From: Saccharibacillus brassicae
GTDB taxonomy: Bacteria > Bacillota > Bacilli > Paenibacillales > Paenibacillaceae
NCBI RefSeq assembly: GCF_006542275.1
Contig: NZ_CP041217.1
Coordinates: 2,217,501-2,281,500 of the forward strand
DNA: 64,000 bases
Direction of reading: 5' to 3'
Positions 6,096 to 47,270 of this stretch are shown piece after piece (the stretch's first letter is position 1; each line of letters starts with the position of its first letter). The notes under the pieces were generated by a model. That model did no database searches and had not been told where the DNA came from. It saw only the letters and a list, made by a program, of their open reading frames with translations. A program made the translations under genes and the position numbers.

Positions 6096-6116
6096 ATCGC
6101 TTCGCAGGGCTCTCGC

Positions 6117-7079: not shown

Positions 7080-7110
7080 ACAGGGTTCCTCCTTCGCCAA
7101 GCCGAAAATG

Positions 7111-7173
7111 TCACGATCGGGCCTTGATCGCATCTCAATCACACCTTGATCAGACCTCGATCGCACCTCAATC
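7111..7173. repeat. Degenerate 11-bp tandem repeat array (array 1)
   Basis: From 7122 the sequence runs in 11-bp units: CCTTGATCGCA, TCTCAATCACA, CCTTGATCAGA, CCTCGATCGCA, CCTCAATC. A weaker unit precedes at 7111. Units start at 7122, 7133, 7144, 7155 and 7166 with no drift in spacing. The array lies directly upstream of the WYL regulator gene and downstream of the BTAD regulator at 7307. Confidence 0.75.
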
Positions 7174-7306
7174 CGGCAGCTTGCCTTCCCTGTCTGTTAT
7201 ACCCGATTGCGCCCAAAAGGGCGAGCGCCAAAAATCGGCGCCGCCCTTATCCCCCTTATGCCCTTATCCTGTTCGGCCTGTCCGCCGGAACCCCGGGCGC
7301 GACCGG

Positions 7307-8269
7307 CTATTTGAAGCGGTGCAGCCGATGCGCGACCGCTTCTTCTTCGCTGCGCATCCGCTGCGCGCGATAGAACTGGCTTAACTGCCGCGCATGCGCC
7401 ATCCAGAGCCGCCGCAGCCGCTCGCGCTCGCTGTTCGCCCACGCGTAATCCAGTTCGGCCAGATAATCGCCCGTGTAGCCGCGCAGAGACGCTTCGTGCA
7501 GCCCGACCGTCTCCGGCCCGATCGGCGGCAGGGCCGCAAGCCCTTCTTCCCAGTCTTCGACGTCGAGTTTCACCGGGCCCGTCTCCAGCCGGTAGCCTGC
7601 CGCCGGACCGCCTTTGGACAGCGTAAGGTCAAGTCCTTCGTCCTTGAGCACCGCGCGGACGGTATAGATCGTATTGTACAGTTGGGACGCCGCCCGTTCC
7701 GGCTCGAATCCCTGCCACAGCAGTTCGAACAGCGTGTCCCGGCCGACCATCCGTCCCCGGTTGTGCAGCAGGTAAGCGAACAGTTCCTGCGCTTTGGTCG
7801 TTCGCCATTTCGGGTAACCCGATCCGCGCCCGGGGCGGTTGACCTGAAGCGGCCCCAGGCAGCGCAGTCCGGGCTGCCCGGCCTCGTCGGTCCCTTCGCG
7901 GATCTCCGCCGTCAAACGATGCCGGGCCCGGTCGAGCGTTCGGCTGAGCCGCTGGCGGTCGATCGGTTTTCTCATATAATCCAGCGGATAATATTCGTAC
8001 GCTTCGACCGCATGCCGGACGGAGCCGCTTGTGAACACGATATCGACCGAAGCGTCCGCGGCCCGAATCCGGGAAGCCAATTCCAATCCGTCGATTTCGG
8101 GCATGCCGATATCGAGAAAGACGATATCCGGGGCCGTTTCCCGTATCCCTTCCAGAGCCTGGCTGCCATCGCTGAACACGCCGGCGATCCGCACCCCTTC
8201 CTCCTGCTCCAGCATGCTTTTCAACCGCAGCAGCGCCAATCTTTCGTCGTCGACCAGCAGCGCTTTCAT
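7307..8269 (-). CDS. Response regulator with winged-helix and BTAD output domains (second copy)
   Basis: 320 residues with the same architecture as the protein at 333-1487. The receiver (1-120) has D7/D8, D53 (VFLDIGMPE), S/T in FTSGS and K in MRKP. The winged helix is at about 145-230 (YPKWRTTKAQELFAYLLHN), followed by a BTAD helical domain. A clear AAAGGAAG ribosome site precedes the ATG. No histidine kinase gene is adjacent, so it is an orphan unless it takes phosphate from the dual kinase at 2019-5177. The promoter must lie in the 85 bp before the SLH gene, a space shared with that gene's terminator. Confidence 0.82.
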   Translation of the reverse strand: MKALLVDDERLALLRLKSMLEQEEGVRIAGVFSDGSQALEGIRETAPDIVFLDIGMPEIDGLELASRIRAADASVDIVFTSGSVRHAVEAYEYYPLDYMRKPIDRQRLSRTLDRARHRLTAEIREGTDEAGQPGLRCLGPLQVNRPGRGSGYPKWRTTKAQELFAYLLHNRGRMVGRDTLFELLWQGFEPERAASQLYNTIYTVRAVLKDEGLDLTLSKGGPAAGYRLETGPVKLDVEDWEEGLAALPPIGPETVGLHEASLRGYTGDYLAELDYAWANSERERLRRLWMAHARQLSQFYRAQRMRSEEEAVAHRLHRFK

Positions 8270-8312
8270 ATGACCGCTTCCTTTCTTTCGTTTCCTGATG
8301 TCGGATTTGTTA

Positions 8313-8347
8313 AAAAGACCCTGCCCGGAAAGTTCCGGACAGGGTCG
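8313..8347 (-). terminator. Rho-independent terminator of the large SLH gene
   Basis: Read on the minus strand, the stem GACCCTGTCCGGAA pairs with TTCCGGGCAGGGTC and is followed by TTTTT. It is just beyond the stop codon of the SLH gene and before the response regulator start. Confidence 0.85.
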
Positions 8348-8354
8348 TCAATCT

Positions 8355-28723: not shown

Positions 28724-29583
28724 TGCCCAAACCGGTCTCCCTGCGCTTATCCGGCGCACCGAAGTCGAAAAAGCACGGCTGGCAGGCAATCGCCGGCGCC
28801 TTGTTCGTGCTGCTCGTCCTGGCCGCCTCCGCCTATACGTTTCTGTACCTGAAGCACGATCCGACGCTGACCGACCTGCGCGGGCGCCTGCACGGCGCAA
28901 GCGCGTCGCACCCGCTCGGCACCGACCATCTGGGCCGCGACGTGCTCACGCGGCTGCTGCTCGGCGGCGGACAGACGATCGGCTACAGCCTGCTCGCGCT
29001 GGGCGCCGCACTCGTGATCGGTATTCCGTTCGGCCTGATCGCCGGCTACCGACGCGGCTGGGTCGACCGGTTGTTCATGCGGATCGCCGACGGCTTTCTC
29101 GCTTTTCCCGATACGATCGTCGCCATTGTGCTGAGCGGCCTGCTCGGCGCGGGCATCAGTAATCTGGTACTTGCGATCGTCATCGTCAAATGGGTCAACT
29201 ATGCCCGGCTCGTTCGCAGCACCGTTCTGGCCGAATCGCAAAAAGACTATATCCGGATCGCCCGCACGAACGGCCTGTCGGACGCGCGCATCATGACCAA
29301 GCATCTGCTGCCGCATATCGCGGGGCATGTGCTCGTGCTGGCCAGTCTCGATATCGGCAAAATCATCCTGCTGATCTCGTCGCTGTCCTATATCGGCCTG
29401 GGCGCGCAGCCGCCGACGCCGGAGTGGGGCGCCATGCTGAACGATTCGCGGCCGTACTTCCAGTCGCGTCCCGAACTGATGGTGTACCCGGGCCTCGCCA
29501 TCGTCTCGGTCGTGCTGATCGCGAACATGCTGGGCGACTACCTGCGAGACCGGTTCGACGTGAAAAAGGAGGTGCAGCCGTGA
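28720..29583 (+). CDS. ABC transporter permease, NikC/DppC type
   Basis: 287 residues. It has an N-terminal helix, the motif HPLGTDHLGRDVLTRLLLGG typical of DppC/NikC permeases, five further helices and the EAA loop (KDYIRIARTNGLSDARI). It pairs with the preceding permease. The start overlaps the previous stop by 4 bp (ATGA). Confidence 0.9.
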   Translation: MMPKPVSLRLSGAPKSKKHGWQAIAGALFVLLVLAASAYTFLYLKHDPTLTDLRGRLHGASASHPLGTDHLGRDVLTRLLLGGGQTIGYSLLALGAALVIGIPFGLIAGYRRGWVDRLFMRIADGFLAFPDTIVAIVLSGLLGAGISNLVLAIVIVKWVNYARLVRSTVLAESQKDYIRIARTNGLSDARIMTKHLLPHIAGHVLVLASLDIGKIILLISSLSYIGLGAQPPTPEWGAMLNDSRPYFQSRPELMVYPGLAIVSVVLIANMLGDYLRDRFDVKKEVQP

Positions 29584-30377
29584 TTCTCTCCATCGAGGAA
29601 TTGAGTATCGCCGGTCGGGATCGCACGCTTGTCGACAAGGTGTCGCTTGCCGTGCGCGAAGGCGAATTCATGGCGCTGGTCGGACAGAGCGGCAGCGGAA
29701 AAAGCCTGCTGTCGCAGGCGATCGGGCAGCTGCTGCCGCCCAATTTGCACGCGTCGGGACGGATGATGTTCGACGGAAGCAATCTGCTCGACCGCAAGCC
29801 GAAAGAGATGCGCGCCCTGAGGGGCAGCCGCATCTCGTATATTTTTCAGGACTATCAGGGCGCGTTCACCCCGTTTCGCAGTATCGGCGCGCACTTCGAC
29901 GAATACCAGAAAGTCCACGGGGAAAAATCCGCCGCCGTCCGCCGCTCCAAAGCGGCCGAAGCGCTGGAATCCGTCGGGCTCGACGCCAAGCTGCTGCGCC
30001 GCTATCCGTTCCAACTGAGCGGCGGACAGCTGCAGCGGGCTTCGATCGCGACCGCGCTGATGCTGTCGCCGCGCCTGCTGATCGCCGACGAAGTGACGAC
30101 CGCGCTCGACAGCGTGTCGGGCCACCGGGTGCTGGAACTGCTGGCGCGCAAACAGGCGGAGACCGGCTGCGCCATCTTGTTCATTACGCACGACTGGCGG
30201 CATGTCCGCCGCTACGCGAACCGCTTGTCCGTCATGAAGGAAGGCCGGATCGTCGAATCCGGCGGCAAGCACCGCATTCTCGACCATCCGCAGCACGATT
30301 ATACCCGCCAGCTGATCGCGGCCGCTCCCATCCTGAGCCGCTCGCTGAATTCGGGACTCGAGGAGGAACCGACTTGA
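29580..30377 (+). CDS. ABC transporter ATPase, NikD/DppD type
   Basis: 265 residues, GTG start at 29580 behind AAGGAGG and overlapping the previous stop by 4 bp. Walker A is GQSGSGKS (35-42), the Q-loop is FQDYQGAF, the signature is LSGGQLQRASI, Walker B is LLIADEVTTALD and the switch His is in FITHDWRHV. It lacks the long C-terminal oligopeptide-transport extension with the iron-sulfur Cys motif of DppD, in line with NikD-type proteins. Confidence 0.9.
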   Translation: MILSIEELSIAGRDRTLVDKVSLAVREGEFMALVGQSGSGKSLLSQAIGQLLPPNLHASGRMMFDGSNLLDRKPKEMRALRGSRISYIFQDYQGAFTPFRSIGAHFDEYQKVHGEKSAAVRRSKAAEALESVGLDAKLLRRYPFQLSGGQLQRASIATALMLSPRLLIADEVTTALDSVSGHRVLELLARKQAETGCAILFITHDWRHVRRYANRLSVMKEGRIVESGGKHRILDHPQHDYTRQLIAAAPILSRSLNSGLEEEPT

Positions 30378-31174
30378 TCCAACCGCTGCTGCCTCCCTCT
30401 TCAAGCGCCGTGCCCGTCCTGAGCGTGGACGGGCTTACCCGCACGTATGCCGGCGCGGAGCGTCCGGCCGTGCAGGACGTCGGCTTCGCCCTCGACCGCG
30501 GCGAATGCCTGGGCCTGGTCGGCGAGAGCGGCTGCGGCAAAAGCACGCTGGCCCGCTGCCTCATGCGGATCGAAGACGCCGATCGCGGCTCGATCCGGCT
30601 CGGCGGGCACGAGATCGCCCGCCTGAACGGCCGCAGGCTGCGGCCGCATCGCCGCAAGATCCAGATCGTGTTCCAGAACCCGACGGCCGCGCTGAATCCC
30701 AAACTGCGGATCGCGGATTCGCTGCTCGATCCGTATCAGCAGCTCGGCCAGGGCGCGAAGCTCACGCACTTCGCGTACACGTCGCGCGACGCCTATATCC
30801 GCCGGCTGCTCGAAGCCGTCGAGCTTCCGGCCGAACTCGCCGGCCGCTATCCGCACGAGCTGAGCGGCGGACAGCGCCAGCGCGTCACGATCGCGCGGGC
30901 GATCGGCATCGAGCCGGACGTCGTCGTGCTCGACGAGCCGACGGCCAGCCTCGACGTCATCTCGCAGGGCGCCGTCCTGGATCTGCTGGACGGCCTGCGC
31001 ACGTCGCTCGGCCTGTCGTACCTGTTCATCTCGCACGACCTTGCCGCCGTGCACCGGATGAGCCAGCGCGTCATGGTCATGCGGGGCGGCGAGATCATCG
31101 ACCGCTTCGCAGCGAACGAGTTGTTCGCGGAAGACCGCCATTTGTATACGAAAGAACTGATTTCGATTTTCTGA
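30374..31174 (+). CDS. ABC transporter ATPase, NikE/DppF type
   Basis: 266 residues, TTG start at 30374 behind GAGGAGGAA and overlapping the previous stop. Walker A is GESGCGKS, the Q-loop is VFQNPTAALNP, the signature is LSGGQRQRVTIARA, Walker B is VVVLDEPTASLD and the switch His is in FISHDLAAV. It is the second ATPase of the importer and the last gene of the Zur-box operon; a strong terminator follows directly. Confidence 0.9.
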   Translation: MIQPLLPPSSSAVPVLSVDGLTRTYAGAERPAVQDVGFALDRGECLGLVGESGCGKSTLARCLMRIEDADRGSIRLGGHEIARLNGRRLRPHRRKIQIVFQNPTAALNPKLRIADSLLDPYQQLGQGAKLTHFAYTSRDAYIRRLLEAVELPAELAGRYPHELSGGQRQRVTIARAIGIEPDVVVLDEPTASLDVISQGAVLDLLDGLRTSLGLSYLFISHDLAAVHRMSQRVMVMRGGEIIDRFAANELFAEDRHLYTKELISIF

Positions 31175-35233: not shown

Positions 35234-37066
35234 CTACTCTTCGCCCCGTACGACTCTGCGGATGTCCTCCACCGGCACTTTCGGCACCCGGTGGTAGGTC
35301 ACGAGCCCGTTGATCTCCTGCTCGACGTCGGTCAGCTGCGTGTAGCAGAAGCCCTGCACCACGCCGGAAACGGTCAGCGGGCGGATGACGGCGCCGAGGC
35401 GCGCCAGGAAGTCTTCGTCGCTGTCCGCGCCGGAATAGCCCCAGCCTTCCTGCTCGCTTTTGCGGTAGGCGATGCCGCCGAACTCGGTCACGAGAATCGG
35501 CTGGCCTTCGTACCGGCTGCCGCCGACGAAGATGCGCCGGTTGGCCGGCATGGCCTGCGTCGCCCGCTCCGCGGTCGCGTAGCGCTCGGTCAGCACGGGC
35601 TCGCGCCATTCGTAATCGTGGATCGCCGCGATATCGGTCGTCATCATCTCCCAGCCGTCGTTGTAGATGACCGGACGCGTCTCGTCGAGCGACTTCGTCA
35701 GATAGTACAGCGTCTGGCCGTGCTGCTGCTGGCGTATGTCGACCTGCACGTTCGGAATGCCCCAGCTTTCGTTCATCGGCACCCAGACGACGATGCACGG
35801 ATGGTTGTAGTCGCGGTCGACCGCTTCCTGCCATTCGCGGGTAAACCGGCGCACGTATTCCTCCGAATACGCGTAAGCATTCGCCGCTTCGCCCCAAACG
35901 AGCAGGCCCATCCGATCGCACCAGTGCAGGAAACGCGGATCTTCCATCTTCTGATGCTTGCGTACGCCGTCGAAGCCCATTTCTTTGGTCAGGCGGATGT
36001 CCCGCACAAAATCTTCGTCCGTCGGTGCCGTCAACACGCCGTCCGGGAAATAACCCTGATCCAGCACGAGGCGCATATAGGTCGGGCGGTTGTTCAGGCT
36101 CAGCCGTCCGTTCTCGATCGAAATTTTGCGCATGCCGAAATAGCTGCTTACCGCATCGATCGTCTGCCCGCCGCGCACCAGTTCGAACGTGACGTCGTAC
36201 AGATTCGGCTGCTCCGGCGTCCACCAGCGGCCGAGGCCGTGATCGTTGAAATCGTTCAGCCCGATCGCCCGCGATTCTTCGGCATTGCGCACAGGGAAAG
36301 ACTGTTCGGCAACCGGCTGCCCGGCAAAAGAAATCCGTACGACGGCCGTAACCGGCTCGGCGGCTTCGGTCACGGAACTCGTCTCCCGCGAAAAGGTCTC
36401 CCGGGAAAAGAATAGGCGCATCCGTACTTCGCCGCGATCGATGTCAGGCGTCAGCTTTACTTTTTCCAGTCGCGCTTCATGCATCGGTTCCAGCCAGACG
36501 GTCTGCCAGATTCCGGTCGTCCGGGTGTAGAAGATGCTCTGCGAGCCTTCCTGCCAGAACTGCTTGCCCCGGGGCAGCGTCACGTCGCGGCTGAAATCTT
36601 CGGCCCGCAAGACGAGCGTGTTGCCGCCTTCCGCGTTCAGCAGGTCGGTAATGTCCGCGCCAAAAGGCGTATGGCCGCCTTCGTGCGAAGCCGCCCAGCG
36701 GCCGTTGACCCAGACGGTGGACGCATAATCGCACGCGCCGATATTGAGGACGATCCGGCGGCCGGCCCACTCCTCGGGCACGTCGAACGCGCGGCGGTAC
36801 CAGACGAGATCATGGAAGCCGGGGTCGCCGATGCCGCTGAGCTTGCTTTGAAAAGCGAACGGGACGTTGATCCGGCGTTCGAACGCTCCGCGGCCGGATT
36901 CGTACCAGCGTTCGCGGTCGCCCCGGCGGTCGTCGTCGAACGCGAAGTCCCATTCCCCGTTCAGATTGAGCCACTGCGCGCGCTCGAACTGCGGACGGGG
37001 ATATTCGGGACGGGGCAGCGCGGTATTTTTTTGCAGGGATGAAGGTTCAGAAGATGGCGTAGGCAT
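35234..37066 (-). CDS. Glycoside hydrolase family 2 beta-glycosidase
   Basis: 610 residues, ATG behind AAGGAGGA. It has an N-terminal sugar-binding jelly roll (30-195, LNLNGEWDFAFDDD), an immunoglobulin-like domain (about 200-312) and a TIM barrel (315-600) with acid/base E433 (VPMNESWG) and nucleophile E528 (ILVTEFGG). There is no signal peptide, so it acts in the cytoplasm on imported oligosaccharides. It is 45 bp after the second permease gene and thus the last gene of the binding protein-permease-permease-GH2 operon. Activity could be beta-galactosidase, beta-glucuronidase or beta-mannosidase; the sequence alone does not decide. Confidence 0.88.
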   Translation of the reverse strand: MPTPSSEPSSLQKNTALPRPEYPRPQFERAQWLNLNGEWDFAFDDDRRGDRERWYESGRGAFERRINVPFAFQSKLSGIGDPGFHDLVWYRRAFDVPEEWAGRRIVLNIGACDYASTVWVNGRWAASHEGGHTPFGADITDLLNAEGGNTLVLRAEDFSRDVTLPRGKQFWQEGSQSIFYTRTTGIWQTVWLEPMHEARLEKVKLTPDIDRGEVRMRLFFSRETFSRETSSVTEAAEPVTAVVRISFAGQPVAEQSFPVRNAEESRAIGLNDFNDHGLGRWWTPEQPNLYDVTFELVRGGQTIDAVSSYFGMRKISIENGRLSLNNRPTYMRLVLDQGYFPDGVLTAPTDEDFVRDIRLTKEMGFDGVRKHQKMEDPRFLHWCDRMGLLVWGEAANAYAYSEEYVRRFTREWQEAVDRDYNHPCIVVWVPMNESWGIPNVQVDIRQQQHGQTLYYLTKSLDETRPVIYNDGWEMMTTDIAAIHDYEWREPVLTERYATAERATQAMPANRRIFVGGSRYEGQPILVTEFGGIAYRKSEQEGWGYSGADSDEDFLARLGAVIRPLTVSGVVQGFCYTQLTDVEQEINGLVTYHRVPKVPVEDIRRVVRGEE

Positions 37067-37111: not shown

Positions 37112-37924
37112 TTACATTTCTTTGCCGCCGGTGAACGCGATGCCTTTGATGATCTGTTTCTGGAAAATAAGGAACACGATCAGCACCGGAATGGCGGCGA
37201 GCGCATTGGCGGTCATCGGCAGCGCGTATTCCTGGTTGTACGAACTCTGGAACATCGGCAGGCCGAGCGTGATCGTCATGTACGCTTTGTCCGAAATGGA
37301 GATCAGCGGCCAGACGTAGTCGTTCCAGGCGCCGATAAAGGTGAAAATGCCGAGCGCGGCAAGCGCGGGACGCGACAGCGGCAGGAAGATGCGATACCAG
37401 ATTTTGAAGAAGCCGGCTCCGTCGATGCGCGCCGCTTCTTCCAGGTCTTTGGGCAGTCCGTCAAAAAACTGCTTCATGATGAAGATGCCCATCGGACCCG
37501 CGATCGCCGGCAGGATCAGCGATACGCGCGTACCGAGCAGGCCGGCGTCGCGCATCAGCAGGTACAGCGGGATCAGCGTCGCTTCGCCCGGAATCATCAT
37601 CGCCGACAGGAACAGGATGAACAGCACTTTGCTGCCGGGAAACCGAATACGGGAAAACGAATAGGCGGCCATCGACGCAAGCAGCAGCACGAGTGCCGTC
37701 GTGATCGACGACACAACCAGGCTGTTGCCCATCCAACCGAAGATCGGAGCCCGGTTCAGCACGGTGGCGTAGTTGTCGAACGAGACGTTGAAGCCTCCGG
37801 CGAACAGGCTGCCTCCTTCGGGCGTCAGCGAGAGCGACAGCATCCAGAGGATCGGCGTCAGAAACATGAGGGCCAGCAGAACGGCCGCGATCCGTACGAC
37901 ATAAGGGTAGATTCGATCGAGCAT
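37112..37924 (-). CDS. Carbohydrate ABC transporter permease (MalG type)
   Basis: 270 residues with six membrane helices and the CUT1 EAA loop (LEEAARIDGAGFFKIWYRIFL). It is the second permease of the importer, 21 bp after the first. It ends 45 bp before the GH2 gene. No ATPase gene is in the operon; Gram-positive CUT1 importers commonly share one MsmX-type ATPase encoded elsewhere. Confidence 0.9.
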   Translation of the reverse strand: MLDRIYPYVVRIAAVLLALMFLTPILWMLSLSLTPEGGSLFAGGFNVSFDNYATVLNRAPIFGWMGNSLVVSSITTALVLLLASMAAYSFSRIRFPGSKVLFILFLSAMMIPGEATLIPLYLLMRDAGLLGTRVSLILPAIAGPMGIFIMKQFFDGLPKDLEEAARIDGAGFFKIWYRIFLPLSRPALAALGIFTFIGAWNDYVWPLISISDKAYMTITLGLPMFQSSYNQEYALPMTANALAAIPVLIVFLIFQKQIIKGIAFTGGKEM

Positions 37925-37945: not shown

Positions 37946-38881
37946 TTATTCCCCGAATCTGCGCAGCAGCGTCGTCTGCAGCAGCGAGATGACCAGAATG
38001 ACCAGCATCAGCACGAACGCGATGGCCGAAGCGTAGCCCATCTGGAACGTCTGGAAGCCGTTTTCGTAAATCGAGAACACGACCGTCTTGGTCGCGCCCG
38101 CCGGCCCGCCGCCGGTAATCAGCTTGGACTGGCCGAAGATTTTGAACGAAGAGATCGTCTGCAGCACGACGACCAGCACCGTCACGCGCGACAGCGACGG
38201 GAACGTCACGTAGCGGAACGTCTGCCAGCGGCTCGCGCCTTCGAGTCCGGCCGCTTCGTAGAACGATTCCGGGATGTCCTGCAGTCCCGCGAGGAACAGC
38301 ACGAACACGAAGCCCATCGTCCACCACAGCGTCGCCATGATGATCGAAGCCCAGGCGAGCGTCGAATCGGACAGCCAGAAGATCTCGCTGTTGATCAAGC
38401 CGATTCCGCGCAGGATGCGGTTCAGCAGGCCGGTATACGGCTGGAGAAAAATAACCCAGATGCTGGAGATGACGGAGACGGACAGCACATAAGGCATGAA
38501 GAACGCGATACGCAGAAAGCCCTGTCCTTTGCGGATACTGTTGACGAGCACCGCCAGCAGCAGCCCGATCGCCGTAATGAGCGGCACGCTGATGACGGTG
38601 AACAGCACCGTGTTCAGCAGATTGGTACGGAATTCTTCGTCCTGCAGCAGATTCGTATAGTTCTGCAGCCCGATAAACGTTCGGTCGCCGAGCAGCGACC
38701 AGTCGTAGAAGCTGACGCCGAAGCCGTAGATGATCGGAATCATCGAGAACAGCAGGAAAAAGATCGTATACGGAAGCACCATCAGGACGCCGGTTACCCA
38801 GCCCTGCCGGCGCAGCGAGCTTCGCGGCGCGCGGGCGTTCGCTCCCGCGTCGTTGCGGTCGGACAATGTTTTGGAAGCCAT
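37946..38881 (-). CDS. Carbohydrate ABC transporter permease (MalF/UgpA type)
   Basis: 311 residues from the ATG at 38881 (AAAGGAG upstream); the longer frame to 39037 reads through the terminator hairpin. Six membrane helices, EAA loop (IPESFYEAAGLEGASRWQTF), and the typical 'TGGGPAGATKTVVFSIYENG' near the C-terminus. Pairs with the MalG-type permease. The hairpin upstream of it probably lowers its expression relative to the binding protein. Confidence 0.9.
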   Translation of the reverse strand: MASKTLSDRNDAGANARAPRSSLRRQGWVTGVLMVLPYTIFFLLFSMIPIIYGFGVSFYDWSLLGDRTFIGLQNYTNLLQDEEFRTNLLNTVLFTVISVPLITAIGLLLAVLVNSIRKGQGFLRIAFFMPYVLSVSVISSIWVIFLQPYTGLLNRILRGIGLINSEIFWLSDSTLAWASIIMATLWWTMGFVFVLFLAGLQDIPESFYEAAGLEGASRWQTFRYVTFPSLSRVTVLVVVLQTISSFKIFGQSKLITGGGPAGATKTVVFSIYENGFQTFQMGYASAIAFVLMLVILVISLLQTTLLRRFGE

Positions 38882-38907
38882 GGTTGCGGTCACTCCTTTC
38901 AGATTCA

Positions 38908-38953
38908 TAAAAAAAGGAAGCGGCGCGCGGCGGAATCGCCCCTGCCGCTTCCT
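38908..38953 (-). terminator. Internal terminator/attenuator between binding-protein and permease genes
   Basis: On the minus strand AAGGAAGCGGC pairs with GCCGCTTCCTT, followed by TTTTTT. It is located after the binding-protein stop and before the first permease gene, a common way to make more binding protein than permease. Confidence 0.8.
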
Positions 38954-38993
38954 TCTGCTTGAGGTCCGGCAAATTCCGGACCGGTCCGGGCGG

Positions 38994-40325
38994 TTACTTG
39001 CCGCTCGTCTTGTCGATGACGGCGTTCGCTTTTTCAAGCGTCGTCTTCGGGTCCTGTTTGCCGGCCATCATCTTCTCGAATTCCTTGATGACGTTATCGT
39101 TGATCTGGCCCTGTTTCTCGTTACGCGGCCAGTATTTGACGAAGTCGGCCGAGGCCGCGTAGTCGCTGCGGTACGGCATGTCTTTGAACGCCTGGGATTC
39201 AAGCACCCGCGTTACGCTCGGAATATGGCCGGCTTTGGCCCACAGCTCGCCGTTGTCCGCCAGCCACTTGGCGAACGTGAGCGCGGCTTTTTGCTTGACC
39301 GGATCTTCCGTGCCGTGCTTCGGCAGCGCCAGCGTATGCGAATCGCCCCACGTCGCCGGTTGGTCGTAGATTTGCGGCATCGGCACGGCGCCGAAGTTCA
39401 GGCCGTCGACGCTTTCGAACGCGCCGGTACTCCATACGCCCGTCGTCAGCACGGCGGCGCGCTTATCCTGGAACAGCTTGACCGCGTCGTTGATCTTCGG
39501 CGGAATAAGCTTGGACGTGTAGAGGCTATTGACGTACTCAAGCGCTTCGAGCGCCTGCGGGTTGTTGAGCGCGGCTTTGCCGCTCTCGTCGTAGAACTTG
39601 CCTCCGTCGGTGAGCTGGTTATAGAAGCCCCAGAACATCCAGTAGGAGTCGGTCCGCACGTCCGGCTGGGCCAGCGGCGCCACGTCGGCCGGCACGGCGG
39701 CTTTGATCTTGGTCAGGAATTCGGTGAAGCCTTCCGGCGTCTGGTCGAAGACCGGTTTGCCGTCTTCGCCGAGCACGCCGGCTTTCTCCAGATGGTCTTT
39801 GTTGTAGTACATGACGATCGCATGCGTATCGAGCGGGATCGAATAATGTTTGTCTTCATAGATCGTCGATTCCAGAATCGTCGGGTTGAACTCGCCCCAA
39901 TCGAGCTGGCTCTCCGCGGCCAGGTCGTCCAGCGGCGTTACGAAGCCGGCCGGAACGAACTGCGGCATGCGCGAGGAGTGCAGGACCATAAGGTCCGGCG
40001 CCTGGTCGGACGCAAGCGACGTCTGCAATTTCGTGTAATAATCGCCCGCCGGGTTCGCGAGCTGTTCCACGTGAATCTCCTGATTCTCCGCGTTGAACTT
40101 CTCGATCATCTGCGTCATGAACTCGCCGTCGCCGCCGCTGAACGGCGTCCAGAACGAAATGGTCGTCTTGCCGGCAGGCGCATCGCCGCCGCCTTCGCCT
40201 CCGGTGCCGGCCGTCGTGCCGCCGCCACTGCCGCTTGTGCCAGCTCCGCCGCCCGCACAGGCGCTAAGCAGCAGCATGAGCGTCAAAGCCAATGCCGCCG
40301 GTTTGAACAGGTTTCTTTTTCTCAT
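38994..40325 (-). CDS. Carbohydrate ABC transporter substrate-binding lipoprotein
   Basis: 443 residues from the ATG at 40325 (AGGGAGGC upstream). Lipoprotein signal with Cys23 (LLLSACAGG), a Gly/Thr-rich linker (25-52), then an SBP_bac_1 (CUT1) fold: TTISFWTPFSGGDGEF, YSIPLDTHAIVMYYNKDHL, MPQIYDQPATWGDSHTLALP. It captures an oligosaccharide for the two downstream permeases. It is closely related to the membrane-anchored protein at 44253-45575. A full-match cre site lies about 97 bp upstream of the start codon, next to a TATGAT -10. Confidence 0.9.
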   Translation of the reverse strand: MRKRNLFKPAALALTLMLLLSACAGGGAGTSGSGGGTTAGTGGEGGGDAPAGKTTISFWTPFSGGDGEFMTQMIEKFNAENQEIHVEQLANPAGDYYTKLQTSLASDQAPDLMVLHSSRMPQFVPAGFVTPLDDLAAESQLDWGEFNPTILESTIYEDKHYSIPLDTHAIVMYYNKDHLEKAGVLGEDGKPVFDQTPEGFTEFLTKIKAAVPADVAPLAQPDVRTDSYWMFWGFYNQLTDGGKFYDESGKAALNNPQALEALEYVNSLYTSKLIPPKINDAVKLFQDKRAAVLTTGVWSTGAFESVDGLNFGAVPMPQIYDQPATWGDSHTLALPKHGTEDPVKQKAALTFAKWLADNGELWAKAGHIPSVTRVLESQAFKDMPYRSDYAASADFVKYWPRNEKQGQINDNVIKEFEKMMAGKQDPKTTLEKANAVIDKTSGK

Positions 40326-40436: not shown

Positions 40437-40583
40437 ATCAATCATAAGGCCGACGGCCGCGCGGTAAAATGACGCTTCTTTAGGCGGAGTGGACATATAT
40501 TTGGGTTTAGCAGGCGGCGAATCAGAGCGCGAAGCCATAGAGCGGCGCGCCGTCGAGCCTGCTGCGGCGGCGGGGTGCCCAAC

Positions 40584-40804: not shown

Positions 40805-42427
40805 TCAGGCATTCGCCCGGTCCGGGCGCAGCGTCTCGCGGAATTCTTTGGGCGTGCGGCCCGTCTCCGCCTTGAAGACGCGGTTGAAGTGCCGGATATT
40901 GGAGAAGCCCGTCCCGTAGGCGACGGAAGCGATTTTGTCGTCGGTATGCAGCAGCAGCCGGGACGCTTCGCGCACGCGCACTTCGGTCAGAATCTCGACG
41001 AACGAGCGGCCGAGCCGGATCTTGAACAGGCTGCTGAGGTAAGACGCGTTCAGGAAGACGAGTTCCGCCATGCTGCCGAGCGTGATCGGCTCGGCGTAAT
41101 GTTCTTCGATATGGCGGACGACGCGGTCTACCGCGTGCAGCCCTTCGCTCTCGTCCCCGCGGCGGACCAGCGCCTGAAGCGAGCGCAGCAGGCCCGCGCA
41201 GTAAGCGGCCAGCTCCGAGCGCGAGCTGAGCGCAAGCGCGCCCTGCAGCGCCGCGCCGATATCGCGGCCTTCCGGCCAATCGCCTTGGACGCCGCGGTCC
41301 ACGGCGAGGCCGTATGCTTCAAGCAGCATCCGGCACACCTGCTCGTGGATCACGGACGGACTCGCGCCGGAATCGCACAGCTGCCCGATGCCTTCGCGCA
41401 CCCGCTCGCCGAGGTCCCCGCCTTCGCCTTCGAGCAGCGCCTGCTCCAGATAGCCGCGCTGGGTCAGCGGCGTCCGCACCGCGCCCGGTTCCTGGCGCGG
41501 CGGGTCCTCGTACAGCAGGACCCGGTTGCCGCCGGAAGTCAGCCGATAGAGCAAAGCGATTCTCGCTTCGCCGTACGATTTGGAGATCTCCTCGACGCCG
41601 TGGACCCCGCCGCCGATTCCGATCGTGATCGTCAGGTTCGCTTCGCGCCGGATACGGCCCGCGATATGCCGGGCCAGTTCCGCGACGTCCGCCCGCGACG
41701 CGGCGGACGCTTCGGCGTCCAGCAGCGCGACGACGCCGGCGCCGCGCCGGAACACGAACCCTGTCCGCACGCCGGACAGCGCTTCTTCGATGAATTGGCG
41801 AATGTAGAGCGAGAACAATTCCGCTTCCTGCCGCTCGTAGCGGCTCGGCTCGACCGAGTCCTTGTCGAGCTCGGCGACGAGCACGTACACGCCCCGTTCG
41901 AACTCGATGCCGGCTTCGCGCAGCTCGCCCGGGCGCGCATGCGGCAGTTCGCCGCGCACGAGCCCGTCGAGCAGCCGGTCCCGCTCTTCCGCGAGCACGG
42001 CCGGCAGGCGCCGCTGCGGCAGCCGCTCGGCCCGCTGCAGCTCGGCCTGCACCAATTCGCGCTCCACCTGGCCGAGCACCCGGTACAGCTCCGCCTTGTC
42101 GATCGGCTTGAGCAGGTAATCCCGCGCGCCGAAGCGCAGCGAACTTTGCGCATAGCGAAAATCGTTATAGCCGCTCAGCACGAAGCAGCGAATCTCGGGG
42201 TAGCGCTCGCGCAGCTGTTCCTGCAGGCCGATCCCGTCGAGGCGCGGCATGCGGATGTCCGTAATGACGAGATCCGGCTTCGTGCGCTCGATTTCCTCCA
42301 GCGCTTCAAGGCCGTCTTTGGCTTCGCCGCACACTTCCCAAGGGGTGTCCGACGTTCCGATCAAATGGCGCAGTCCCCGGCGAAAGATCGCTTCGTCGTC
42401 GACGACCAGCACTTTGCGTTTATCCAT
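40805..42427 (-). CDS. YesN-type response regulator with AraC DNA-binding domain
   Basis: 540 residues from the ATG at 42427 (GGGAGAG upstream). The receiver domain (1-125) has D10/D11, D57 (VITDIRMPRLDG) and K in LLKP. A long central helical/GGDEF-like region follows (about 130-430). The C-terminal AraC double helix-turn-helix lies at about 440-535 (ITLGSMAELVFLNASYLSSL, SVAYGTGFSNIRHFNRVFK). The gene overlaps the YesM kinase gene by 8 bp. It most likely activates the sugar importer/GH2 operon and the GH43 gene nearby. Confidence 0.9.
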   Translation of the reverse strand: MDKRKVLVVDDEAIFRRGLRHLIGTSDTPWEVCGEAKDGLEALEEIERTKPDLVITDIRMPRLDGIGLQEQLRERYPEIRCFVLSGYNDFRYAQSSLRFGARDYLLKPIDKAELYRVLGQVERELVQAELQRAERLPQRRLPAVLAEERDRLLDGLVRGELPHARPGELREAGIEFERGVYVLVAELDKDSVEPSRYERQEAELFSLYIRQFIEEALSGVRTGFVFRRGAGVVALLDAEASAASRADVAELARHIAGRIRREANLTITIGIGGGVHGVEEISKSYGEARIALLYRLTSGGNRVLLYEDPPRQEPGAVRTPLTQRGYLEQALLEGEGGDLGERVREGIGQLCDSGASPSVIHEQVCRMLLEAYGLAVDRGVQGDWPEGRDIGAALQGALALSSRSELAAYCAGLLRSLQALVRRGDESEGLHAVDRVVRHIEEHYAEPITLGSMAELVFLNASYLSSLFKIRLGRSFVEILTEVRVREASRLLLHTDDKIASVAYGTGFSNIRHFNRVFKAETGRTPKEFRETLRPDRANA

Positions 42428-44249
42428 GGCGGTCTCTCCCTTCTTCCTCTTCGCGTTCCCGCAGGTCCGGCAGCCGGATCGAAGCCCGGATGCCGCCGGA
42501 CTCCGCCCGCTCCAGCCGGACGCCGAAGCCCGATCCGTACTTGAGCACCAGCCTGCGGTGCACATTGACCAGCCCGTGCCCGCCCGGCCCTTCCGGCAGC
42601 AGCCCTTCTTCCATCTTGGCGTTCTGGCGCCGCAGCTGTTCGTCGCTCATGCCCGGTCCGTCATCCGTCACGGAGATGAGGATACGCTCGCCGCTTAGTC
42701 CGATCGCGATGACGATGCCGACTTCGCCGATTCCGTGCTCCAGCCCGTGCACGATCGCGTTCTCCACGACCGGCTGCAGCGTCAGCCGAATGACCGGGCT
42801 GTCCATCAATCCCGGCTCCGCTTCGATCCGGTAGCGCAGCCGCTCTTCGTACCGGATGCCCTGAATCGCCAGATACCCGCGAATATGCTCGATCTCTTCG
42901 CGGACGGTCACTTCGTCGCGTCCCCCGCCCATGCTGTAGCGCAGCAGGGCGCTCAGATGGTTGGTCATGCTGACGACTTCCCGGTTGCCTTCGAGCTCGG
43001 CGTACATGCTGATCGAGCCGAGCGTATTATAGAGAAAATGCGGATTGATCTGGCTCTGCAGCGAAGCGATCTCCGCGTTTTTCTCCCGGATCTCCGTCTC
43101 GTACAGCCGATACGTCAGCGTGCCGAGCCGGGACACCATCAGATTGAACGTCCGGCTCAAATGGCCGATCTCGTCTTCGCTCTCGACCGGGATCGAGATG
43201 CCGAACTGCCCTTTCTCGACCAGCTTCATCGAATGGCGCAGCCGGCTGAGCGGGCGTGTGATCCGCAGCGCGTACAAGACCGAGACGAAGATCGAAGCGG
43301 CCAGACAGGCCAGGCCGACAAGCAGCATCTGCCGGTTGACCGTCTCCGCGTCCTTGAGCAGAATGCTCATCGGGACCGCCTGAAGCACGGTCCAGCCTGT
43401 CACCGGCGACGTCACGTACGTCATCAGCACCGAAGAACGCCCGCTGCCGAGCGTGACGGTGCCTTCGCCCCGATAAGCCGCGAGGCGGCCGGTCGAATCG
43501 GGAAAAGCGCCGCTCTCGTAGATCGGCTCGCCGCTTCCGCCGAGCACCGCCACCGAGCGCTCGCCGCTGCCCGACAGATTCGCGATCCGCTCGCGCAGGT
43601 CGCTCGACGGCACGTCGATTTTGAGAATGGCGAGCCGTTTCCCACTTTCGAGGCTGCGAATGACGCGGACCGCCGAGAAGACGCTGTACGTCGAGCCGTT
43701 GTCGGATTTCAGCGAATGCGGACCGACGAACACCGCTTCGCCGAACGCGGCCGCTTCGGCGAACGCGCTCAGGTCGGGATCGTCTTCCTCGGTGAACCGT
43801 CCGGGGCTGTCGGGCGGCTCGACGTACGAACGCACCTGCTGCGCCTGCAGCGTGATTCCGATCGTATCGACCCGCCCGTTCACCCGGATGCGCCGCATGA
43901 ATTCTTCCAGCAGCATCCGTTCTTCGTACACCGTCGCTTCGCCCGCGTCCCGGCGCTCCAGATAGTCGAGCAGGTCCGGCGTCTGGTAAGGCAGCACCGA
44001 CAGCAGCGCCAGTTCGTTCATATAGATGTCGAGGTTCGCGCTGAATTCGTGCACGGCGTCCGCCTGGTACGCGCCGACGTTGCGCTGGACCGCCCGGGAG
44101 TAGCCGATGCCGCTGAGCAGCGACGAGAGCAGCAGCGGCACGGCGATGAGGATCAGATTGATGCCGATCAGCTTGAATGCGAGGCTTCGGTTGGCGCGGC
44201 GCGCTTGTTTGCGGCTCCACAGACTGCGGTATTGCGCAAATTTGCCCAT
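42420..44249 (-). CDS. YesM-type membrane sensor histidine kinase
   Basis: 609 residues. TM1 is at about 25-48, followed by an extracellular dCache-like sensor (50-300), TM2 (about 305-327), a HAMP domain (about 328-378), the His_kinase domain with H404 (SQINPHFLYN) and HATPase_c (about 490-600, GGHGLVNVHRRL). A GGAGGAATAA ribosome site overlaps the stop of the upstream binding-protein gene, leaving a 3-bp gap, so production of the two proteins is coupled. Together with the anchored binding protein it probably senses an extracellular sugar. Confidence 0.9.
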   Translation of the reverse strand: MGKFAQYRSLWSRKQARRANRSLAFKLIGINLILIAVPLLLSSLLSGIGYSRAVQRNVGAYQADAVHEFSANLDIYMNELALLSVLPYQTPDLLDYLERRDAGEATVYEERMLLEEFMRRIRVNGRVDTIGITLQAQQVRSYVEPPDSPGRFTEEDDPDLSAFAEAAAFGEAVFVGPHSLKSDNGSTYSVFSAVRVIRSLESGKRLAILKIDVPSSDLRERIANLSGSGERSVAVLGGSGEPIYESGAFPDSTGRLAAYRGEGTVTLGSGRSSVLMTYVTSPVTGWTVLQAVPMSILLKDAETVNRQMLLVGLACLAASIFVSVLYALRITRPLSRLRHSMKLVEKGQFGISIPVESEDEIGHLSRTFNLMVSRLGTLTYRLYETEIREKNAEIASLQSQINPHFLYNTLGSISMYAELEGNREVVSMTNHLSALLRYSMGGGRDEVTVREEIEHIRGYLAIQGIRYEERLRYRIEAEPGLMDSPVIRLTLQPVVENAIVHGLEHGIGEVGIVIAIGLSGERILISVTDDGPGMSDEQLRRQNAKMEEGLLPEGPGGHGLVNVHRRLVLKYGSGFGVRLERAESGGIRASIRLPDLREREEEEGRDRHG

Positions 44250-44252
44250 CTG

Positions 44253-45575
44253 TTATTCCTCCAGAATCCGGTCGATTTTCGGCCCGATTCCCTTCAGCAT
44301 GCCGTCTACCGTCTGGCTGCCCGACCACAGCCGCTCCAGTTCGACGACCAGTTCGTCGCTGACCCGTCCCTGCTTCGGATGATCCGGGAAATAAGCGACG
44401 TCGTCGGCCGCTTCGGCGTAATCGCTCCGGCTCGGCAGCGCGAGAAAAGCTTGCGATTGCGCGGCCGCTTCATACGCCGGAATATGCCCGGCCTGCGCCC
44501 AGACGTCGCCGTGTCGGGTGAGCCAGGCGGCGAACTTCAGCGCCGCCCGGCGCTTCGCCGGATCGGCCTGCGCCTGCGCGGGCAGCGCCAGCGTATGCGC
44601 GTCGCCCCACGAGGCGGGGCGGTCGTAGATCTGCGGCAGCGGCATGACGCCGAAGTCGAGCCCTTCCGCCTGCTCGAACAGCCCGATCGACCAGACGCCA
44701 AGAAACAGCGTGGCCGCTTCGCCCCGCGCGAACTGGCTCGTCGCGTCGTTGATGTCCGGCGGAATCAGCCCTTCCCGGTACAGCGAATCGACGTAATCCA
44801 GCGAACGTTCCGCCGCTTTCATGTTCAATCCGGCGTGTTTGCCGTCCGCCGCGTAGAGCCGCCCGCCTCCGTCGATCTGGCTATACAGCGACCACCAGAG
44901 CCACAGCGAATCGATACGGATATTCGGCACGGCGAGCGGCGCCACGTTTTCGGGAACGTTCGCGCGGATCTTTTTGAGAAAATCGGTAAATCCCTGTTCG
45001 CCGGGCTCAAGGAGCACTTTGCCGTTTGCGTACAGCCCCGCCTGCTTCAGCCATTTTTTGTTGTAATACAGCACGCCGAAGTGGGCATCCAGCGGCACGC
45101 CGTAATGGTGGTCGCCCAGCACCGTTTTGCGCAGAATGTTTGGGTTGTACCCGTCCCAGTCCACCCCGGCCTCCGCCGCTTCTTCTCCCGCGATCGCCGT
45201 GACAAAATCCGCCGGAACGTACTGCGCGTACTTCGAAGCATGCACGATCGCCACGTCCGGCGCTTCGCCGGTCACGATCGCGGTCGACAATTTCGTATAA
45301 TAATCGTCCAGCTTGTTGTTGTTCATCCGCACGACGATCCCTTCGCCGTTCTCTTCGTTGTACCGCGCGACCAGACCGTTCATGAACGAGCTGTCCCCGC
45401 CGCTGAACGGCGTCCAGAACTCGATCGCCGTCTTCGTCTCCGCCGCGGCCGGCGTTTCGTATCCGCTTTCATAATTGTCCGTCAACCACAGCCCCAAAGT
45501 CAGCACCAGGGCGGCCAGCACGGGCACGAGCCAGAGCGGCGTTCTTTTTCCGTACCAAAAATCCGAGCGGCCCAT
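44253..45575 (-). CDS. Membrane-anchored sugar-binding protein, probable sensor subunit
   Basis: 440 residues from the ATG at 45575 (GAGGAGGAG upstream). Unlike usual binding proteins it has no lipobox Cys. An uncleaved N-terminal helix (about 12-31, LWLVPVLAALVLTLGLW) tethers an SBP_bac_1 domain to the outer face. It is a clear paralogue of the transport binding protein at 38994: both have EFWTPFSGGD or SFWTPFSGGD, 'GLIPP.IND', and 'MP.PQIYD.PA.WGD.HTLALP'. It is the first gene of an operon with YesM and YesN and is not adjacent to permease genes. The layout suggests it presents sugar to the kinase instead of to a transporter. Confidence 0.85.
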   Translation of the reverse strand: MGRSDFWYGKRTPLWLVPVLAALVLTLGLWLTDNYESGYETPAAAETKTAIEFWTPFSGGDSSFMNGLVARYNEENGEGIVVRMNNNKLDDYYTKLSTAIVTGEAPDVAIVHASKYAQYVPADFVTAIAGEEAAEAGVDWDGYNPNILRKTVLGDHHYGVPLDAHFGVLYYNKKWLKQAGLYANGKVLLEPGEQGFTDFLKKIRANVPENVAPLAVPNIRIDSLWLWWSLYSQIDGGGRLYAADGKHAGLNMKAAERSLDYVDSLYREGLIPPDINDATSQFARGEAATLFLGVWSIGLFEQAEGLDFGVMPLPQIYDRPASWGDAHTLALPAQAQADPAKRRAALKFAAWLTRHGDVWAQAGHIPAYEAAAQSQAFLALPSRSDYAEAADDVAYFPDHPKQGRVSDELVVELERLWSGSQTVDGMLKGIGPKIDRILEE

Positions 45576-45706
45576 CCCGCTTCTCCTCCTCGTTCCCGGC
45601 ATCCGGTCACCGTTATGTCCGTTTATTGTCCTTATACACGCCCTGCCTCTATTCTAAATCCGATCGCAGCGCAAACGCCGTTTTTCCTTCATTTTGCCAA
45701 AATTAC

Positions 45707-45731
45707 GTCCATACCTAAAAATAGGTCCATA
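45707..45731. promoter_or_regulatory. Candidate regulator site between the divergent sensor operon and GH43 gene
   Basis: GTCCATA occurs twice with 18-bp spacing (45707, 45725), and ACCTA-AAAA-TAGGT forms a palindrome between them (45713-45726). Position between divergent genes fits an operator for the YesN regulator, but this is only inferred. Confidence 0.4.
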
Positions 45732-45854
45732 TCTGCGCGACCGCAAGTCTTTTCCCAAAAAATAAGACCGTTCCCCCCAAAGATCCGTCCTGTTCGCCGC
45801 CGCGCGATTGCGTTAAGTTGTTCGTAACACTCAACCGAGGGGAGACAACACTGA

Positions 45855-47270
45855 ATGAACAGAAAAACATGGCTCAAAGGCGGCCTTGCGCTGATGCTGC
45901 TCGGCACGACGCTTAGCGGCGGAAGTTATGAGGCGGCACAGGCAGCTTCGGCTCAGACAAAAAACGATTTCTACAACGTCATCATGCAGGACGGCGCCGA
46001 TCCGTTCATGTACCGGCACGCGGACGGCTACTATTACTTCACGAAAACGACGGGCGGCAACGTGACGCTCTGGCGCTCCAAGACGATGACCGGCATCGAC
46101 GCGGCCGAGACGACGGTCGTCGAGACGGGCGGCCAGAACGTGTGGGCCCCGGAAATCCACCGGATCGACGGCGCCTGGTATATTTACTACGCCAAAGACG
46201 ACGGGGACAACGCCAACCACCGGATGTACGTCATGCAGAACAAGTCGCTCAATCCGCTCAAAGGCACCTGGGTCGACAAAGGCCCGATCGCCGATTCGAC
46301 CAACCGCTGGGCGATCGACGGGACGGTGTTCAAGGCGCGCGGCATCTCGTATTTTGTCTGGTCGGGCTGGGAAGGCACCGAGAACGTGCGGCAGGTGCTC
46401 TATATCGCGCGCATGAGCAATCCGTGGACGATCGATTCGCCGAGAGTCGAGATCGCGCGGCCGGAGTATCAGTGGGAGACGAACCATTCGCCGAACGTGA
46501 ACGAAGGCCCGCAGATTCTCGTCAAAGGCAATCAGATCAACATCGTCTACTCCGCCAGCGGCAGCTGGACCGACGATTATTCGCTCGGCCTGCTGACGGC
46601 CAAGAACAACAGCGACCTGCTGGACCCGGCTTCGTGGACCAAACGGCCGGATCAGGTGTTCAAGACAGGCGGCGGCGTCTACGGACCGGGTCATGCCAGC
46701 TTCACCGAGTCGCCGGACGGGCAGGAAGACTGGATCGTGTATCATGCGGCCAAAAGACAAGGTTCCGGCTGGGACCGCGAGATTCGCACGCAGCCGTTCA
46801 GCTGGAACGCGGACAAGACGCCGAACTTCGGCAGTCCGCTTGATCCCAACCAACCGATTCCATTGCCTTCGGGCGAACCGCAGCGCGACCGCTACGAAGC
46901 GGAAGACGGCCGGCTCGGCGGCACCGCCAAAGTGTCGCAGCACGCGGACAGTTCGGGCGGCGCGAAAGTCGGCTATATCGACACGCCCGAGAGCTACGTG
47001 GACATCGACGTCGACGTGGACAAAGGCGGCACGTACATCCTCTATGCGCGGACCGGCAACGGAACGGCGGGCGGCAATTGGTCGACGCTGAAGCTGTCCG
47101 TGGACGGCGGACCGGCCAGCGACTTCTTCGTGACGAACCAGGGCTGGGACAACTGGGGCACCTCGACACAGAAAATGACGCTGGACAAAGGCAAGCATAC
47201 GATCCGTTTCGCCAAAGGAGACGGCTACGCCGAAATCGACGGGTTCGACCTGTTCCGCGTCGGGAAATAG
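45855..47270 (+). CDS. Secreted glycoside hydrolase family 43 with C-terminal CBM
   Basis: 471 residues, ATG preceded by GAGGGGAG. Signal peptide (1-31, cleaved after QAA). Five-bladed GH43 propeller (about 38-335) with base D49 (GADPFMYRHADGYYY), D155 (RWAIDGTVF) and acid E217 (NVNEGPQIL). A CBM6/35-like beta-sandwich follows (about 345-471, RYEAEDGRLGG...IDGFDLF). GH43 enzymes release arabinose, xylose or galactose from plant polysaccharides such as arabinan, arabinoxylan or arabinogalactan. Outside the cell it would generate the oligosaccharides taken up by the adjacent importer. Divergent from the sensor operon. Confidence 0.88.
   Translation: MNRKTWLKGGLALMLLGTTLSGGSYEAAQAASAQTKNDFYNVIMQDGADPFMYRHADGYYYFTKTTGGNVTLWRSKTMTGIDAAETTVVETGGQNVWAPEIHRIDGAWYIYYAKDDGDNANHRMYVMQNKSLNPLKGTWVDKGPIADSTNRWAIDGTVFKARGISYFVWSGWEGTENVRQVLYIARMSNPWTIDSPRVEIARPEYQWETNHSPNVNEGPQILVKGNQINIVYSASGSWTDDYSLGLLTAKNNSDLLDPASWTKRPDQVFKTGGGVYGPGHASFTESPDGQEDWIVYHAAKRQGSGWDREIRTQPFSWNADKTPNFGSPLDPNQPIPLPSGEPQRDRYEAEDGRLGGTAKVSQHADSSGGAKVGYIDTPESYVDIDVDVDKGGTYILYARTGNGTAGGNWSTLKLSVDGGPASDFFVTNQGWDNWGTSTQKMTLDKGKHTIRFAKGDGYAEIDGFDLFRVGK

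Follow-up and report, generated by a model that had tools for sequence, protein, structure and literature searches.

A membrane-tethered binding protein as the probable sensor subunit of a YesM/YesN system in Saccharibacillus brassicae

The soil bacterium Saccharibacillus brassicae (Paenibacillaceae) very probably possesses a membrane-tethered three-component sugar sensor that would drive the expression of a neighboring importer operon and a GH43 glycosidase gene. We propose that a tethered binding protein would capture an extracellular oligosaccharide and dock onto the dCache-like ectodomain of a YesM-type histidine kinase. Judging from the protein families, the kinase would then phosphorylate a YesN-type response regulator, which might bind tandem 18-bp boxes, 21 bp apart and located by comparison, upstream of the importer operon as well as boxes upstream of the GH43 gene, thereby activating both targets. 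The importer would be served by its own paralogous lipoprotein, and a transmembrane helix would serve as the tether that substitutes for a lipid anchor in this genus. All coordinates refer to the window, the whole 64,000-nt stretch analyzed (assembly GCF_006542275.1, contig NZ_CP041217.1, positions 2,217,501-2,281,500, forward strand).

The triad is encoded on the minus strand in the order binding protein (45575-44253), kinase (44249-42420) and regulator (42427-40805). The binding protein (440 aa; SBP_bac_1, E 9.6e-25) lacks a lipobox; its frame opens with an ATG at 45602, but AGGAGG precedes the ATG at 45575, where the coordinates given here start. The kinase (609 aa) carries His_kinase (1.8e-26) and HAMP (2.5e-12) domains and two transmembrane segments (residues 27-45 and 308-326), while the regulator joins a Response_reg domain to an HTH_18/AraC-type HTH. 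The original prediction had the binding-protein gene translationally coupled to the kinase gene; the 3-bp gap between them is as described, and it is this spacing that suggests the coupling. Kinase and regulator genes overlap by 8 bp. The triad contains no permease genes, as had been claimed; an importer operon nonetheless follows in the same orientation, beginning 0.48 kb downstream of the triad and past a terminator-like hairpin (40612-40590, minus strand; 81-nt fold z -2.41) that is weak evidence alone, since 1.4 such hairpins are expected by chance in that stretch. A promoter-like site for this operon (40441-40468, minus strand; TTTACC-16-TATGAT, 9/12) precedes the importer binding protein (38994-40325), a lipoprotein with an LSAC motif according to its domain profile and lipobox pattern. 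Two BPD_transp_1 permeases are encoded at 37946-39037 (E 2e-18; the frame opens at 39037 and the true start lies further in) and 37112-37924, and domain assignment places a GH2 glycosidase at 35234-37066, all on the minus strand, and a GH43 glycosidase with CBM6 at 45855-47270 on the plus strand.

A dedicated sensor role for the first protein of the triad, as originally predicted, is strongly supported by comparison of gene neighborhoods. When the three-gene order was counted across 394 Paenibacillaceae genomes, the genes of all 72 kinase orthologues found (E<=1e-80) were immediately preceded by a same-subfamily binding-protein gene and followed by a YesN-type gene. Because the searches, which spanned 394 and 296 genomes, scored only a few top-ranking preliminary candidates in each genome, these orthologue totals are lower bounds, and related genomes do not provide independent loci. 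Outside the family, 28 kinases matched, and 25 of them have the binding-protein gene directly upstream. In 69 of the 72 family loci an importer that has a second binding protein to itself is visible (18 in clade A and 51 in clade C); in the remaining three the contig ends before an importer could show. In clade C the importer is a different one, distantly related to that of clade A, and the sensor binding protein is still kept. These observations make it very improbable that the anchored protein is a second delivery subunit of the adjacent importer with no part in signaling, since it adjoins the kinase and not the permeases in all 72 loci, persists beside a different importer, and accompanies importers that hold a binding protein of their own. 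What speaks for such a delivery role is similarity: the two binding proteins are indeed paralogues, as had been proposed (48% identity over 390 columns, E 2e-136), and sensor clade A preserves 61 of the 88 columns invariant among importer proteins. Sensor clade C preserves 65, and this retention counts in favor of the sensor reading as well. In addition, a PotD-like protein (named by eye) of the same genome has no lipobox, so that a missing lipobox does not by itself mark a sensor. In the alignment comparison, no column signature divided both sensor clades from both importer clades, and five columns divide clades A and C from clade B only.

The dedicated sensor presumably meets the kinase at its extracytoplasmic domain (43329-44114, minus strand). 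This region matches Pfam dCache_1 below the cut-off of 45 (28.6 bits, E 1.3e-6), and its predicted fold (pLDDT 77) resembles dCache domains in the PDB with Z up to 17.9; the ectodomain alignment omits L153, whose kinase is split over two frames. Binding proteins are also described as activating chemoreceptors with dCache domains (PMC6321045). With a dCache-like domain of its own, the kinase could conceivably sense the sugar directly, with the binding protein only sharpening or delivering the signal. This is in line with the Cua system, in which the kinase-regulator pair responds to cellobiose even when CuaD is missing (PMC10384115), and with L248, a locus outside the family where the kinase and regulator genes follow an importer that has just one binding protein, and a gene for a dedicated sensor is lacking. 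We nevertheless regard direct sensing as unlikely, given that the binding protein is retained beside 97 of the 100 kinases matched at E<=1e-80. As for the sugar captured by the tethered protein, a fold search with the binding protein scored many sugar binders and dinucleotide binders alike and gave no ligand call.

The triad appears to turn on the neighboring importer and GH43 genes, as suggested by conserved promoter elements. Conservation and a box model define two putative regulator boxes upstream of the importer operon (box 1, 40488-40505, and box 2, 40467-40484, minus strand, 21 bp apart) and three at the GH43 promoter (45696-45713, 45714-45731 and 45776-45793, plus strand, with scores of 9.9, 16.5 and 17.9). 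In the whole S. brassicae genome, the sole zero-mismatch match to the box-1 pattern is the importer promoter and the sole one-mismatch match is the GH43 promoter. In clade A the boxes are found on the GH43 side in 18/18 loci and toward the sensor operon in 0/18. The model was trained on 15 of the 18 clade-A importer promoters (L135, L136 and L137 have no exact anchor and were excluded), and the clade-C scan covered 51 loci, without L165, L196 and L211. The model scored >=8 upstream of the different importer in 48 of these 51 loci, the importer-promoter box being the top site of the entire locus in 41; three scored <8 and ten hold a better site elsewhere in the locus. A shuffled control gave 1/51, and none of 20 importer loci without this kinase reached a score of 8, these control importers (D) not being the closest kin of the clade-C importers. 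At five loci outside the family (L230, L231, L232, L242 and L254), the top box lies ahead of the sensor gene itself. The boxes were found through conservation only, and nothing but co-occurrence links them to the YesN-type regulator, so they might belong to another regulator while the triad controls something else. That, however, seems distinctly improbable, as the boxes accompany the triad whichever of the two importers is present and are missing in 20/20 importer loci without the kinase. If the assignment to the YesN-type regulator is right, the box may offer a handle for predicting its targets.

The N-terminal anchor is where this sensor departs from most of its relatives. Its hydrophobic stretch contains no Cys, while the importer paralogue carries LSAC, and a transmembrane helix is predicted at 45480-45536 (minus strand; 19 residues, mean hydropathy 2.18). 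A helix in place of a lipid anchor had been predicted, and the helix and the missing lipobox bear this out; that it stays uncleaved is suggested by the length of its hydrophobic core, with no cleavage site conserved. Cleavage, with release of the protein or its retention in the wall, would be favored by the PAAAE stretch that 8 of 10 Saccharibacillus sequences carry after the helix. We consider it quite unlikely, as PAAAE lies about 13 residues beyond the hydrophobic core, is not conserved in six P. dauci-group sequences, and relatives carry a lipid anchor at the same place. With the lipobox defined as a loose pattern ahead of the conserved domain and not as a predictor call, the tally over triads is 81 lipobox versus 16 helix, the helix being confined to the 16 genomes of this genus among triads found in and outside Paenibacillaceae. 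The anchored form, originally presented as the essence of the system, is thus its rarer variant. Within S. brassicae, 38 of 42 SBP_bac_8 matches have a lipobox-like site (one, STAC, by eye), one (2362560) is not classifiable, and the sensor protein and two others (G000 2194340 and 724476) have none. The nearest YesM-type kinase is 25 kb and 270 kb away from these two. A missing lipobox is thus rare and yet no proof of a sensor. We also considered the helix as a signaling element, as proposed for LevT. An ungapped comparison had suggested that the helix is more conserved than the ectodomain, and this reversed once the sequences were aligned, with conservation of 0.748 versus 0.824 in 10 Saccharibacillus sequences and 0.307 versus 0.774 in the six of the P. 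dauci group. A signaling role is thus not supported, since the P. dauci-group helices keep little beyond hydrophobicity.

Since the lipid-anchored triad is the commoner one, the helix looks like a later substitute, in this genus, for the lipid anchor. All 54 clade-C relatives carry a lipobox, as do 2/18 clade-A relatives (G153 and G167). A single lipid-to-helix exchange would be the simplest reading; it is unproven because the two trees place G153 and G167 differently. The first groups them with P. dauci-group sequences (72/83), and the second, denser tree sets them basally in clade A (forks 94/90 and 93/81, not starred). Of the kinases, 49 (18 clade A and 31 clade C) form one clade with an SH-aLRT of 99, separate from the 18 other YesM-type kinases of the S. 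brassicae genome, in a tree that omits L153. Twenty-two clade-C loci (L191-L212) enter the locus and box counts and are absent from this tree and the first binding-protein tree. By the tree analysis, the split between sensor and importer binding proteins predates both genus and family, which counts against the original idea of a transport protein duplicated into a sensor, and the trees disagree on the branching order of clades A, B and C and hence on the direction of duplication. The first tree, built without two long-branch importer rows and a distant importer group, joins the importers (B) to C (91/74; AU p 0.27 for A+B and 0.088 for A+C). The denser tree, built on a thinned set, places B beside A-like sensors (91/84), nested between two sensor-only clades. 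Tentatively, and contrary to the usual account, the sensor might be the kinase's older partner and the importer protein of this locus a recruit from a sensor, the helix having later replaced the lipid anchor with the pairing kept. If this is true, an exchange without loss of pairing would mean that tethering alone matters.

Dedicated sensing proteins of this kind have precedents. XylFII-LytS/YesN of Clostridium beijerinckii (reportedly described by Sun in 2015 and Li in 2017) likewise ties a dedicated sensor binding protein and a kinase to sugar import, and XylFII belongs to a different binding-protein family from our sensor. AraPST of Geobacillus stearothermophilus was reportedly described by Shulami in 2011. 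LytS is described as having a 4-helix module as its ectodomain (PMC9769921), where we predict a dCache fold, and AraPST resembles our locus in dividing sensing and uptake between two binding proteins (PMC10384115). A 2022 survey counts only about 10 characterized sensor kinases that are activated by a binding protein (PMC9602780).

The closest parallel is CuaDSR of Ruminiclostridium cellulolyticum, whose likeness speaks against the near-novelty originally suggested for the system. There (PMC10384115), one operon encodes a second family-1 binding protein, a two-transmembrane HAMP kinase and an AraC-type regulator beside an importer operon with its own binding protein, and in a two-hybrid assay the kinase CuaS was bound by CuaD and not by CuaA, the binding protein of the importer. 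Our locus shares the gene order, the two-transmembrane HAMP/His_kinase protein, the AraC-type regulator and the importer with a separate binding protein. There cuaDSR is described as constitutive; here no clade-A box faces the sensor operon. Unlike our sensor, with its helix and no Cys nearby, CuaD is predicted to be a lipoprotein; no domain is predicted, according to that report, in the ectodomain of CuaS, whereas ours is dCache-like; and cellobiose was measured as the Cua ligand, whereas for our triad an oligosaccharide is presumed. Membrane anchoring has a precedent in LevQRST of Streptococcus mutans, where membrane-anchored ABC-type sugar-binding proteins act as sensors and serve a kinase and not a transporter (PMC3043104). 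There are two such proteins, LevQ and LevT, where our triad has one; LevS has up to 5 predicted transmembrane segments and little extracellular part, in contrast to our two segments; no ABC importer is described nearby, whereas one adjoins our triad; and the N-terminal part of LevT was proposed to carry the signal, whereas P. dauci-group sequences show little conservation of our helix. The open-licence literature we searched yielded no description of a YesM kinase with a helix-anchored partner, nor any study of kinases in Saccharibacillus.

The principle is therefore already known from other bacteria, and the helix-for-lipid form is seen in one genus only. What the family offers is a natural experiment, in which one orthologous sensor triad occurs with two anchor types, two importers and apparently one operator, making it testable whether a sensor binding protein needs a tether. 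The system also lets one ask how the kinase avoids confusing its partner binding protein with the closely related paralogue of the importer, and what sugar the sensor responds to.

We propose that the anchored binding protein in this locus is the sensing subunit of a three-gene signaling system (triad). On the minus strand, its gene (45575-44253; the sensor) is followed by genes for a YesM-type kinase (44249-42420) and a YesN-type regulator (42427-40805) and, after a 0.48-kb gap containing a terminator-like hairpin, by an importer operon that begins with a lipoprotein binding protein (40325-38994) and continues with two permeases and a GH2 enzyme. On the plus strand, diverging from the sensor gene, lies a gene for a GH43 enzyme with a CBM6 domain (45855-47270). 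The originally predicted sensor start at 45575 is right, since AGGAGG precedes it. The sensor's N-terminus carries a 19-residue hydrophobic stretch that contains no cysteine; LSAC is present in the importer binding protein. Among named relatives, the closest to the anchored protein comes from S. qingshengii (90% identity). Elsewhere in the window, a second YesM-type His_kinase domain (2379-2621; G000:C1:2219879-2220121, minus strand) lies within a 1069-aa open frame, and 29190-31174 holds an adjoining pair of ABC ATPase genes, of oligopeptide type as judged by eye from translation only.

The arrangement and spacing of the genes, the type of anchor read from the sequence, the predicted folds and the conservation of both pairing and boxes are what was observed; around them the following sequence of events can be envisaged. 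The sensor would bind a sugar and dock on the dCache-like domain of the kinase, which might then pass phosphate to the regulator, leading to activation. The ligand is likely a plant cell-wall oligosaccharide, to go by GH43 and GH2 only. The kinase has two transmembrane segments, and its ectodomain scores 28.6 bits against Pfam dCache_1, below the curated cut-off of 45; its predicted fold is nevertheless dCache (pLDDT 77; top PDB match Z 17.9 over 233 residues). The binding-protein model (pLDDT 86) resembles solved two-lobed sugar binders and also dinucleotide binders in a fold search. Among 88 columns invariant in importer-type proteins, sensors of the window's clade (A) keep 61 and those of a second locus type (C) keep 65, which is compatible with, and no proof of, a retained sugar site.

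The locus is well conserved. GH43, sensor, kinase, regulator, importer binding protein, two permeases and GH2 occur in identical order in 13/13 named loci (nine Saccharibacillus, four Paenibacillus). With the kinase as query (E <= 1e-80), an orthologue was found in 72 of 394 Paenibacillaceae genomes, one per genome. All 72 loci were examined, those of nine same-genus genomes via their named loci, with agreeing positions; counted this way, the three-gene order of the original prediction held in 72/72, each kinase gene being immediately preceded by a binding-protein gene of one and the same subfamily and followed by a YesN-type gene. An order-level search of 296 genomes gave a kinase match in 67, of which 40 were family genomes already counted. 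The remaining 27, outside the family, held 28 kinase matches, and every locus was fetched: in 25 a binding-protein gene immediately precedes the kinase (in one case divided between two frames), and it is missing at two weaker matches, of about 275 bits. At locus L248 (genome G439; 3571-10202, reversed strand), kinase and regulator directly follow an importer that has just one binding protein, and a dedicated sensor gene is absent. That one lipoprotein branches close to the base of the importer clade in the denser of our two binding-protein trees, and the arrangement may be ancestral, with one protein in both uses, or may reflect a loss. At L153 (G251; 7909-9768), the clade-C kinase is split into two frames, with the binding-protein and regulator genes open. 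Taken as a whole, the observation is real, and it is highly likely that the anchored protein is a sensor, not a transport part.

Two locus types carry the triad. Clade A (18 loci) has the triad followed by an importer whose binding protein (set B) is closely paralogous to the sensor, whereas clade C (54 family loci) has, where the contig is long enough, an only distantly related importer (binding protein, two permeases), GH43 and then the triad. A tree of 49 of these kinases (18 A, 31 C) groups A and C in a single clade (SH-aLRT 99), outside which fall the 18 further YesM-type kinases encoded in the window's own genome. Related importers lacking this triad (set D, 20 loci) showed a weak kinase match at one locus and regulator matches at four. 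The binding proteins resolve into four clean clades, the sensors A and C and the importer sets B and D. The first tree joined B to C (91/74), with alternative orders not rejected; the denser tree joined B to A-like sensors (91/84), between two sensor clades. The original prediction derived the sensor from a transport protein by duplication. The paralogy stands (48% identity over 390 columns of the pairwise alignment of sensor and importer binding protein), but since the two trees disagree on how A, B and C branch, the direction from transporter to sensor is possible only.

The helical anchor has a narrow distribution. A helix without a lipobox (a loose pattern before the conserved domain) occurs in 16 of the 72 family triads, namely those of the 16 same-genus genomes searched (Saccharibacillus and the P. 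dauci group); a lipobox is present in the remaining 56 and in 25/25 triads outside the family (one read by eye). Two clade-A members outside the genus, Paenibacillus sp. P96 (G153) and G167, also have a lipobox, and they sit at the base of clade A in the denser tree (93/81), though not in the first (72/83). The simplest reading is one single lipid-to-helix exchange. Because the helix is less kept than the ectodomain (identity 0.748 versus 0.824 in Saccharibacillus) and poorly kept in the P. dauci group (0.307 versus 0.774), it would fit better as a tether than as a signaling helix. Across the window's own genome, a lipobox-like site is present in 38 of the 42 binding proteins that belong to the sensor's Pfam family. 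Two more binding proteins without a lipobox are encoded at G000:C1:2194340-2195128 and 724476-725336; one is PotD-like and the other stands beside a PhoH-like gene (both by eye), and the 4 kb read for the latter showed no permease.

Promoter alignment in clade A revealed two putative 18-bp regulator boxes, spaced by 21 bp, ahead of the importer operon. A weight matrix trained on 15 of the 18 clade-A importer promoters was tested on loci outside the training set, and scored at least 8 upstream of the clade-C importer in 48/51 loci, the site being the best of the entire locus on both strands in 41/51 and having a tandem partner at 21 bp in 35/51. Shuffled clade-C upstream regions reached this score in 1/51, and set D in 0/20, an imperfect control because its importers are not the closest kin of those of clade C. 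Boxes also occur on the GH43 side in 18/18 clade-A loci, including L138 (G167), although no GH43 gene is recognized there; the boxes at L138 are strong (scores 21 and 23) and lie upstream of the sensor gene, on the strand opposite to it. Boxes pointing to the sensor operon were found in none of the 18 clade-A loci, and upstream of the sensor gene in 1/54 of clade C. At five loci outside the family (L230, L231, L232, L242 and L254) the best box stands in front of the sensor gene itself, so self-induction of the sensor operon may occur there. The box-1 pattern has seven sites in the window's own genome at up to two mismatches (three for the reversed pattern), the sole perfect one at the importer promoter and the sole one-mismatch site at the GH43 promoter. 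This distribution, across loci and within the genome, argues for importer and GH43 as the triad's probable targets, and co-occurrence suggests the YesN-type regulator as the candidate binder.

Similar systems have been described. One report (PMC10384115) presents CuaDSR of Ruminiclostridium cellulolyticum, which shares the layout: next to the importer operon, a constitutive operon encodes a second binding protein together with a kinase and an AraC-type regulator; the predicted lipoprotein CuaD binds CuaS, whereas the importer protein CuaA does not. It also notes separate binding proteins for sensing and uptake in C. beijerinckii and G. stearothermophilus. For S. mutans, LevQ is described as a sugar-binding protein with a transmembrane-domain anchor and, like LevT, as a transport protein evolved into a sensor (PMC3043104). 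The three-part principle and membrane anchoring therefore both have precedents; in listings of open-licence papers we found no description of this helix-anchored triad. The helix-anchored triad is a genus-level variant of a kind already known, and what the locus adds is membrane anchoring combined with a YesM/YesN triad, together with an exchange of anchor inside one orthologous family.
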